Origin: Spirochaetota bacterium | GTDB lineage: Bacteria > Spirochaetota > UBA4802 > UBA5368 | NCBI GenBank assembly: GCA_035477215.1 | Contig: DATIKU010000040.1 | Span: 1 to 49,515, forward strand | Direction: 5' to 3' | DNA: 49,515 nt | Shown: positions 46,409 through 49,515 of the stretch, piece after piece | Layout of the letters: each line of letters begins with the position of its first letter | Numbering within the stretch: position 1 is the stretch's first letter | The notes under the pieces: model-generated | Database searches by the model: none | Seen by the model: the letters and a program-made list of their open reading frames with translations, nothing else | What the model was told of the DNA's origin: nothing | Position numbers and translations under genes: made by a program

Positions 46409-47158
46409 GTGAGAGAAAAAATACAGATCGAGGATCTCCGGAAAAGCTTCGCCGATAAGGTCGTGCTCGCGGGGGTCGACCTCTCCGTGCGCGAAGGCGA
46501 GGTACTGTGCGTTATCGGCCGCAGCGGCTCGGGAAAGTCGGTCATCCTCAAGCACCTCATCGGCCTGCTCGCGCCCGACTCGGGCACCATCCATATCGAC
46601 GGCCTCGAGTTCACCGGCGCAAACGAACGCGAGCGACATGCGGCCCTTGCGAAAATCGGCGTGCTCTTTCAGTGGGCGGCGCTCTTCGATTCCATGAACA
46701 TATTCGACAACGTCGCCTTCGGCCTTCGCAGGCGCGGCATACCCGAGGATGAGATTTCCCGAACAGTGCCCGAGATGCTCTCGCTCGTTGGGCTTCGCGG
46801 CATCAACGAGCGCATGCCCTCGGAAATTTCTGGGGGGATGCAGAAGCGCGTGGGCCTTGCCCGGGCCGTTGCGCTCAAACCGCAGATCGTGCTCTACGAC
46901 GAGCCCACAACCGGCGTGGACCCCATCACCGCCGGGGCCGTCGACCGCCTCATCCTTAAAATGCGCGACACCCTCGGCGTTACCAGCGTCGTCGTGACTC
47001 ACGATATGAAATCAGCCTGGCACATCGCCGACCGTATCGCCATGCTCCTCGACGGGCGCATCGCCTTTTTGGGCACCGTGGACGAGCTCAGGGCCGCGGA
47101 GGACCCGTTTATAACGCAGTTCATCGAAGGGAGGGCCAATGGACCACGGGTTACGTAG
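46409..47158 (+). CDS. ABC-transporter ATPase, MlaF-like
   Basis: 249 residues, GTG start at 46409. Walker A IGRSGSGKSVILKHLIGLL, Q-loop VLFQWAALFDSMNIFDNVAF, signature ISGGMQKRVGLARAVA, Walker B IVLYDEPTTGVDP, and H-loop VVVTHD. The ALFDS-x-x-(V/I)-x-x-N-V-A-F region is typical of MlaF/Ttg2A, the ATPase of retrograde phospholipid transport. The expected permease (MlaE) and MCE protein (MlaD) are not adjacent. The gene instead overlaps a lipoprotein amidase gene by 20 nt, and upstream is the decayed nucleotidyltransferase locus. Confidence 0.85.
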   Translation: MREKIQIEDLRKSFADKVVLAGVDLSVREGEVLCVIGRSGSGKSVILKHLIGLLAPDSGTIHIDGLEFTGANERERHAALAKIGVLFQWAALFDSMNIFDNVAFGLRRRGIPEDEISRTVPEMLSLVGLRGINERMPSEISGGMQKRVGLARAVALKPQIVLYDEPTTGVDPITAGAVDRLILKMRDTLGVTSVVVTHDMKSAWHIADRIAMLLDGRIAFLGTVDELRAAEDPFITQFIEGRANGPRVT

Positions 47159-48623
47159 CGTCATTATTCCGTTTCTGTGCGTGTGCGGGCTCGCCGCGGG
47201 CTGCGGCGTCCCGGCCGTAGAAAAAACGCATGCTGGCGTCAGGGAATTCGTGCATGGCATAGCGGCGCGTATCGCGCAGGCCGGGCCGTGGACGTTTGGC
47301 TGCGGCATCATGAGTAAAAAATACGACGGAGACCTCAGGCTTATAGAGTACCCGTGGCTCGCCGGCAAACGCATTTTCATCGACCCCGGCCACGGCGGCC
47401 TTGGCAAAAAAGACCTCTTCCGCATCGGGCCCGGCGGCATCACCGAGGAGGAGGTCAACCTCCGCGTCGCGCTCATCCTCGCCTCCATGCTCCGCGATGC
47501 GGGCGTCGAGATCAAACTCGCCCGCACACGCGACGCCGACATTCCGCTCAAAAAGCGCGTGGAGATGGCCGAAGATTTCGGGCCCGATTTGTTGATCTCC
47601 ATTCATCATAATGGCTCGGTACGGCGGAGCGACGGCGTGAACTATCCGTGCGTGCTCGCCTGGGGAAGCGACGAGGTGAACCCCGCGAGCTTCGACTTCG
47701 CGCGGATGCTCCTCGAGCGCCTGCACGGCATCATGGATGGAAGAGGCGCGGTGCTTTCCGATTTCGCGGTGTTTCCCGAAACCGGAGCGCACATCCTCCG
47801 CGAGACGCGCTACCTATGCCCGGGCGTCATCGGCGAGGCCGGATTCTTCTCGGACGAGGCGCACGCGCGGCACCTTTCGGAGCGGCTCTACAACCGCGAG
47901 GAGGCCGAAGCATACTTCCTCGCCGTGGCCGAATACTTCAAACGCGGACTTCCCTCCGCGACGGTGAAGATATCCTCGAAGGTCGACAATTCAGGATATC
48001 AGCAAAACCTGATCGTCGACCGTTCGCCCGGCATCTACGTTTTCGCCGACAGCGGGGCTTACGGCGTGGACGTCGACGCGAAGTCATTCCGCGCGACGCT
48101 CGACGGCCTGCCGGTAAAAATCGTCCCCATTACGAAGAATATCTTCCGTGTCGAGTACGGCCCGAGCCTCCACCCAGGAAGTCACGCCCTGCGCTTTTTC
48201 TTCGAAAACGCGCGCGCGCAGAGAAGCCCCGTGTTTCTGGCATCGTTTAACGTGCTCGTCGAAAAGGGCGATTACGCGCGGCTTGTGAAGGAGGGTACGC
48301 GCCTCATCTCGTCGCATTGGACGGCGCGCGAGGGAGTGCTCATGCTCCGCGCGGCCCTCTCCATGGGGACCACCGACCCGGCGGCCGACGCGCTTTTATG
48401 GAAGCTCGCGCGCGCCTGCGAACTCATCGGGGAGCGCTCCCAGGCCTGGTACCTATACGCGCGGTTGTACTACTTCTATCCGGACAGCCCATACCGAAAA
48501 AAGCTCGCCGGAAAATTTGTGGGGCACCGCTACCCGGTGGAGTTCCTCGGGAAGAAGGTGAAGGTGGAGTTCGATCCGGCCCTTGGGTACGCCGGGAAAC
48601 CGGACGCGGAAAAAGAGAAATGA
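47139..48623 (+). CDS. Lipoprotein N-acetylmuramoyl-L-alanine amidase (Amidase_3) with C-terminal extension
   Basis: 494 residues, GGGAGGG before the ATG, which lies inside the ABC gene. Signal with lipobox LAAGC (Cys22). The amidase domain spans about 75-270: zinc ligands H85 (IDPGHGG), E103 (GITEEEVNL) and H156 (ISIHHNGS), catalytic Glu E233 (GEAGFFSDEAHARHL). This set predicts an active enzyme cutting the MurNAc-L-Ala bond. Residues about 275-390 form a beta-rich domain (VDNSGYQQNLIVDRSPGIYV) and the rest is helical and TPR-like (LARACELIGERSQAWYLYAR). A lipid-anchored, chromosomally coupled envelope enzyme. Confidence 0.85.
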   Translation: MDHGLRSVIIPFLCVCGLAAGCGVPAVEKTHAGVREFVHGIAARIAQAGPWTFGCGIMSKKYDGDLRLIEYPWLAGKRIFIDPGHGGLGKKDLFRIGPGGITEEEVNLRVALILASMLRDAGVEIKLARTRDADIPLKKRVEMAEDFGPDLLISIHHNGSVRRSDGVNYPCVLAWGSDEVNPASFDFARMLLERLHGIMDGRGAVLSDFAVFPETGAHILRETRYLCPGVIGEAGFFSDEAHARHLSERLYNREEAEAYFLAVAEYFKRGLPSATVKISSKVDNSGYQQNLIVDRSPGIYVFADSGAYGVDVDAKSFRATLDGLPVKIVPITKNIFRVEYGPSLHPGSHALRFFFENARAQRSPVFLASFNVLVEKGDYARLVKEGTRLISSHWTAREGVLMLRAALSMGTTDPAADALLWKLARACELIGERSQAWYLYARLYYFYPDSPYRKKLAGKFVGHRYPVEFLGKKVKVEFDPALGYAGKPDAEKEK

Positions 48624-48636
48624 CAAAGAATAAACT

Positions 48637-49395
48637 CTACAGCGCCAGCCCCGCGGCGAGGTAGAGGAACACGCCCGTGAAGCTCGCTTCGTCATCCGTT
48701 TTAATGCTGTCGTAATCGAAATCGTTATAGCTGTCGAACACCACGTAGCGAGCCATCACCCCCGCCGTCAGCCCGACGGGACCGAGGACGTAGGTGTAGT
48801 CCGCTTTTATATGATAGCCTATGGCGAGGTCTTCCCATGTCTCCTCCTCCATATACTCCAGTGAAGACGGGAGTGGCATGTTCGATTCGAATGTATCGTT
48901 TACCTGCGAATAATAAAGCCCCGCACCAACGCCGAGGGCGAAAAAGCTCTTTTCAGTCGCTTTCTTCCGGTAATAGACCGTCAGCAGGCCCTGGAGCGAG
49001 ATAAGACTCAGCGAGTACTCGAATTTATCCGGATAATTCGGGCTCGTAATTTCCGATTCGTAGGTTATCCCGTTCATTCCTCCGTCTATACCGAAACCCC
49101 ATTCGCCGAAATACTTTCTTATTCCCAGTTCGAAACCGTAAGCGATAGATGGTGTGCTGGTTTTGTCGACCCTAAACCCCTGAAGCGGATAACCGGCATC
49201 AGCGTTATACTCATCGGCAAACCACCGCGCGCTGTCTTTAAGAGCATTCTCGATGTCTGAATTGCCGGTAACATAGCCCACGTTACCACCGATCATCAAT
49301 TGGAAATCGGGCAGCGAGGCGAGGCTTTCTTCTTTTGTCGATCCCGTTTCGGTCTGTGCGAAAAGGGCGGCCGACAGGACACCAGGGCGGGCCAT
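48637..49395 (-). CDS. Outer-membrane beta-barrel protein with a disrupted 5' end
   Basis: About 252 residues, mostly alternating beta strands with aromatic girdles (FQLMIGGNVGYVTGNSD, WGFGIDGGMNGITYES, FALGVGAGLYYSQVND, GLTAGVMARYVVFDS) and the ending GVFLYLAAGLAL, all typical of small outer-membrane barrels. The N-terminus MARPGVLSAALFAQT retains only the last part of a signal peptide (SAALFA before QT) and has no positive start or ribosome site. Just upstream the opposite strand reads as an internal part of an IS256-type transposase, so the true 5' end has been lost. Probably silent now. Confidence 0.7.
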   Translation of the reverse strand: MARPGVLSAALFAQTETGSTKEESLASLPDFQLMIGGNVGYVTGNSDIENALKDSARWFADEYNADAGYPLQGFRVDKTSTPSIAYGFELGIRKYFGEWGFGIDGGMNGITYESEITSPNYPDKFEYSLSLISLQGLLTVYYRKKATEKSFFALGVGAGLYYSQVNDTFESNMPLPSSLEYMEEETWEDLAIGYHIKADYTYVLGPVGLTAGVMARYVVFDSYNDFDYDSIKTDDEASFTGVFLYLAAGLAL

Positions 49396-49515
49396 TATGG
49401 GCGAAAATTACATACGGTGGCGGGAGAAGTGAATCTAAAGGTTCCTAAGTTGAGGAAGCTGCCCTTCGAATCTGCGGTAATAGAGCGCTACAAGAGAAGG
49501 GAAATATCGGTTGAG
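49378..49515 (+). mobile_element. Internal fragment of an IS256-family transposase, running off the window
   Basis: Plus-strand reading from about 49378: DTRAGHYGRKLHTVAGEVNL then KVPKLRKLPFESAVIERYKR and REISVE, continuing past the last base. This is characteristic of the middle N-terminal part of IS256 (mutator) transposases. There is no upstream start codon, terminal inverted repeat or 8-9 bp duplication before it: it begins inside the reading frame, fused to the signal-peptide region of the outer-membrane gene on the other strand. Confidence 0.75.

Follow-up and report, generated by a model that had tools for sequence, protein, structure and literature searches.

The contig DATIKU010000040.1 (C40), whose entire 49,515 bases constitute the window analysed here, most likely stops within IS256 transposase sequence that has another upstream neighbour in the sequenced sample, as counting 141 bases back from the contig terminus at position 49515 leads to 49375, inside the zone where a probable outer-membrane β-barrel gene passes into transposase. 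That C40 ends one k-mer into transposon sequence present elsewhere in the sample is given a probability of roughly 0.8. Overall, the arrangement can mostly be read as a routine end of assembly within a mobile element, possibly with a real truncation beneath. The source genome is a 3.57-Mb draft of 62 contigs with a completeness of 95.5%, and the features of C40 discussed below are the following.

47139 to 48623, plus strand: N-acetylmuramoyl-L-alanine amidase-like gene (profile matches below the cut-offs of the models), convergent with the barrel gene and used for the comparison of gene order.
48637 to 49380, minus strand: probable outer-membrane β-barrel gene lacking a promoter and its initial codons (supported by relatives; OMP_b-brl_2 gives 0.014, which is below cut-off).
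49372 to 49380, no strand: join zone, nine bases whose codons can be read as signal peptide on the minus strand and equally as transposase on the plus strand.
49372 to 49515, plus strand: transposase homology, starting at about codon 53 (congener numbering; 51-58 in other copies) and open to the contig end.
49375 to 49515, plus strand: presumed repeat overlap of one k-mer, coding for an internal IS256-type transposase piece (final 141 bases of the contig; exact 141-base overlaps among the other ends of the assembly; PF00872 4.1e-10).

The terminal stretch of C40 is free of stop codons on the plus strand and encodes 46-48 residues of an IS256/Mutator transposase. The 46 amino acids from 49378 to the end match the Pfam family PF00872 (Transposase_mut) at 39.5 bits (cut-off 21), which assigns the tail, on a fragment alone, to the IS256 family transposases. 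With the IS256 model of NCBIfam they reach 3.8e-8 and 32.7 bits, under its whole-protein cut-off of 150. Over 46 residues, the piece shares 78% identity with a full-length congener transposase. In tblastx comparisons with six relatives, four extend the transposase homology leftwards as far as the R codon at 49372 and a fifth extends it to 49369, with the sequence L186 being identical to L184.

On the minus strand, the barrel gene starts abruptly with the retained residues VLSAALFAQ, the rest of the N-terminus being gone, and its frame continues open to an ATG at 49395, within the transposase sequence. By comparison with barrel relatives, seven of nine of which upon inspection by eye carry an ordinary signal peptide at their start, VLSAALFAQ reads as the end of a signal peptide, and if the join is real, roughly 10-14 codons would be missing. 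Such a gene, devoid of start and promoter, would probably be silent. Concerning the identity of the protein, the match to OMP_b-brl_2 is weak, and the same family is found at up to 0.1 in three of the nine aligned barrel proteins, with 7.8e-5 as the best value. Besides one close orthologue (94% over 50 residues), the other relatives show 28-35% identity and occur in 8 of the 59 searched genomes, the own genome included. A search for relatives of solved structure gave none that was credible, and a single-sequence structure model was uninformative (pLDDT 30.5). The frames of both strands bear out the original prediction that the barrel gene loses its start, mid-gene, where the other strand turns into transposase, and place this transition at about 49372-49380.

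Related complete elements indicate where an element end is to be expected. Genome G156 has two identical IS256 copies, from which the element is 1,341 bases long with imperfect terminal repeats (20/24), and 8-base duplications, read from the flanks, bound both copies; in G055, two copies match over 1,328 bases, possibly including a few flanking bases. The IS256-family features used for comparison stem from PMC7780238, which reports a target duplication of about 8 bases for ISCth4. The codon at the C40 join corresponds to a position 254-261 bases inside the elements of G156 and G055, and because the element end in complete copies sits that much farther out, the join is not an insertion border. 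In agreement with the original prediction, which had noted the lack of terminal repeats and held that this is not a simple insertion, no terminal inverted repeat was found near the join (49301-49515) with three element ends tried, the best match covering 14 of 26 bases. C40 holds only one border side of the IS256 piece, with the other border lying outside the contig. A hairpin-driven join was rejected, as folding of the region 49330-49430 is no better than that of shuffled sequences (z 0.02).

The position of the join relative to the contig end coincides with a property of the assembly. Terminal stretches of 1,500 bases were taken from either side of each of the 61 further contigs and, with those of C40, made up 124 ends; 10 of them gave N and were set aside, leaving 114 without N. 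Exact overlaps of 141 bases connect 17 pairs of these ends, and two more pairs terminate in identical 141 bases, so that 38 of the 114 ends take part. Where two ends share their tail, they already differ at the base next to it, and the preceding 141 bases are unrelated (equal at 35/141 and 33/141). In the range of 20-599 bases, the other exact overlaps are one of 88 bases and one self-overlap of 142 bases; the latter concerns the right end of contig C57, which overlaps its own reverse complement and represents a palindromic end. Exact 141-base overlaps are what de Bruijn assembly at k = 141 characteristically leaves. This value is a setting in use with MEGAHIT; none of the records consulted for the present genome names its assembler. 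Counted from the join zone as defined by homology, the C40 tail is 136-144 bases long, a range that includes the exact overlap length of 141 and with it a start at 49375; as an arithmetic scale of chance for this fit, nine out of about 1,090 positions remaining in such an element would give it. A Pfam scan of the longest frames at 112 other contig ends gave 69 families.

To account for the contig end, the assembler would have left single-copy sequence, the barrel gene, and entered IS256 transposase sequence that follows a different neighbour elsewhere in the sample as well, and assembly on a de Bruijn graph would halt one k-mer, i.e. 141 bases, beyond such a meeting point. The contig-terminal place together with the exact overlap length explains why the reading stops at 49515. 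A second IS256 copy with another neighbour should accordingly be present in the sample. Several observations count against this reading of a repeat end: for 76 of the 114 ends, among them the one at 49515, an exact partner over 141 bases is missing, longer inexact matches link some ends instead, e.g. 410 bases at 95%, and a second copy of the 141-base tail was not found in any other contig of the own bin. Multi-copy elements are often lost in binning. Neither an IS256 family member above cut-off elsewhere in the bin nor an intact IS256 copy, reciprocal piece or other border in the bin was detected. Beyond the own bin, the 141 bases have no copy other than that of the stretch itself in 46 genomes of the class, and in a 392-genome sample of the phylum two other genomes possess copies, at 70-71%. 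The 141 bases gave no match in plasmids or phages at E 1e-5, and a 30-base piece of the tail gave no exact match in viral contigs.

An end of the contig in repeated sequence is compatible with different origins of the join itself. Nested within the main reading is a genuine change of the chromosome, in which a deletion or illegitimate recombination would have taken away the 5' part of IS256 and the beginning of the barrel gene with it. It is somewhat more likely that at least some cells carry a 5'-truncated IS256 fused to the barrel gene within its signal-peptide part than that the join is artificial, because a join normally survives up to k = 141 only if overlapping reads cross it at several offsets. 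In line with a rearrangement are also the location of the join at about codon 53, far inside the related complete elements, the nine bases compatible with both sides and the presence of another broken IS256 piece in the genome, on contig C32. On the other hand, neither a complete copy nor a reciprocal piece or second border was found in the bin.

A misjoin or chimera of the barrel gene with an IS256 copy, possibly from another organism of the sample, is the less likely alternative. The position at the contig edge, mid-gene and without an element end, would suit such an artefact, as would a bin otherwise without related transposase except for the decayed 5' piece, but a tail of just k bases suggests a branch of the graph rather than a stray read end. 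Recombination between an insertion sequence and the gene or mis-assembly at a repeat were the two explanations offered by the original prediction and both persist as live readings, whereas the contig-terminal position and the 141-base overlap had been missed.

The other IS256 piece of the genome lies on the minus strand of C32 at about 54,116-54,381 (L189 1487-1752) and is a decayed 5' end of an element with a frameshift and a stop. As read from translations, it is flanked by an oxidoreductase gene and a chemotaxis-receptor-type gene. In the sister genome G002, homology to the C32 locus starts at most 2 bases from the outer edge of the element end, and the oxidoreductase side found no match at that locus in G002. 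The C32 piece codes up to a codon between 47 and 59, and the C40 piece begins at about that codon. One IS256 copy might conceivably have been split, with the 5' part now residing on C32, the 3' part as the tail of C40 and the ends exchanged with the barrel gene. The only two IS256 pieces in the bin are indeed complementary, with breaks that nearly coincide (codon about 47-59 versus 53), and both are similarly distant from the congener copy (tail 96/144 bases), but the frameshift and stop are absent from the C40 piece and no start of the barrel gene is seen beside the C32 piece in the three frames inspected. Because of the latter, the two pieces are not read as halves of one event; the C32 piece is not supported as the reciprocal half, and a split copy is highly improbable despite the coincidence of the breaks. 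That a complete IS256 inserted cleanly into the barrel gene, as a clean element end in the orthologous gene of a sister species might suggest, can be dismissed, as the join lies about 255 bases inside the element (254-261 bases separate the 5' end from the join codon in complete relatives) and no terminal repeat is present there.

This sister-species contig, JAGODA010000333.1 (identical to contig C427 of G002), carries the orthologous barrel gene likewise at a contig end and shows homology to the C40 stretch from its base 124 onwards (85.8% over 2,562 aligned columns). Its first 127 bases (L026 1-127) equal the end of an element of the congener G004 at 124/127 positions, an element with a PF00872 transposase (1.5e-66) and terminal repeats that match at 21/24. 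A second copy of the 127-base tail was not found in the bin of G002. For the repeat-end reading of C40, the sister contig's stop inside a transposon end is a point in favour, and the missing second copy a point against. The two contigs have in common an orthologous gene at the contig end and a tail in an element with a PF00872 transposase, whereas in the sister species a different element is involved, which interrupts the gene at about codon 201 of 252 and meets it with a proper terminus. The sister-species contig is a clean case of what C40 shows untidily. Repeated hits of elements on the barrel gene, in two sister species, constitute a modest lead and the sole biological one, with G002 being a fragmented draft of about 450 contigs and two hits in one gene possibly reflecting selection or chance. 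It seems rather improbable that the surface barrel protein is repeatedly switched off by Mutator-type elements in the genus, by IS256 in C40 and by a different one in the sister species, e.g. under phage pressure, with IS256 copies in the C40 genome tending to break near codon 53.

Gene order in other genomes was compared starting from the amidase-like gene. In neither G001 nor G004 did the region behind the amidase show a barrel gene; the contig of G003 ends too soon to tell. On contig C71 of G004 (L044 2130-10640), a TolB-like gene and an AMP-ligase, as read from translations, replace the barrel gene behind the amidase. Most of this G004 block sits in contig C44 of the own genome: two parts of the 7.1-kb stretch behind the amidase match C44 at 12.2-19.5 kb of 133.8 kb, which is not an end, and the first kilobase of the stretch has no match in C44. 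What follows the amidase in G001 and G004 matches the own contig ends only over 18-30 bases at E 0.2-0.7, and no continuation was found.

Compared with the IS256 family of Mutator-type insertion sequences (Pfam PF00872), the C40 tail shares a transposase segment above the Pfam cut-off, but comprises an internal segment only, without element ends or target duplication. As in contig termini at insertion sequences in short-read genome and metagenome assemblies, C40 ends in a transposase with a tail of the exact-overlap length of its assembly; unlike those, it enters the repeat mid-element and the partner copy is absent from the bin. No new kind of system is needed. As the case shows, the exact overlap length of an assembly, for which the contig ends alone suffice, allows a striking mid-gene join to be identified from sequence as the end of a contig.
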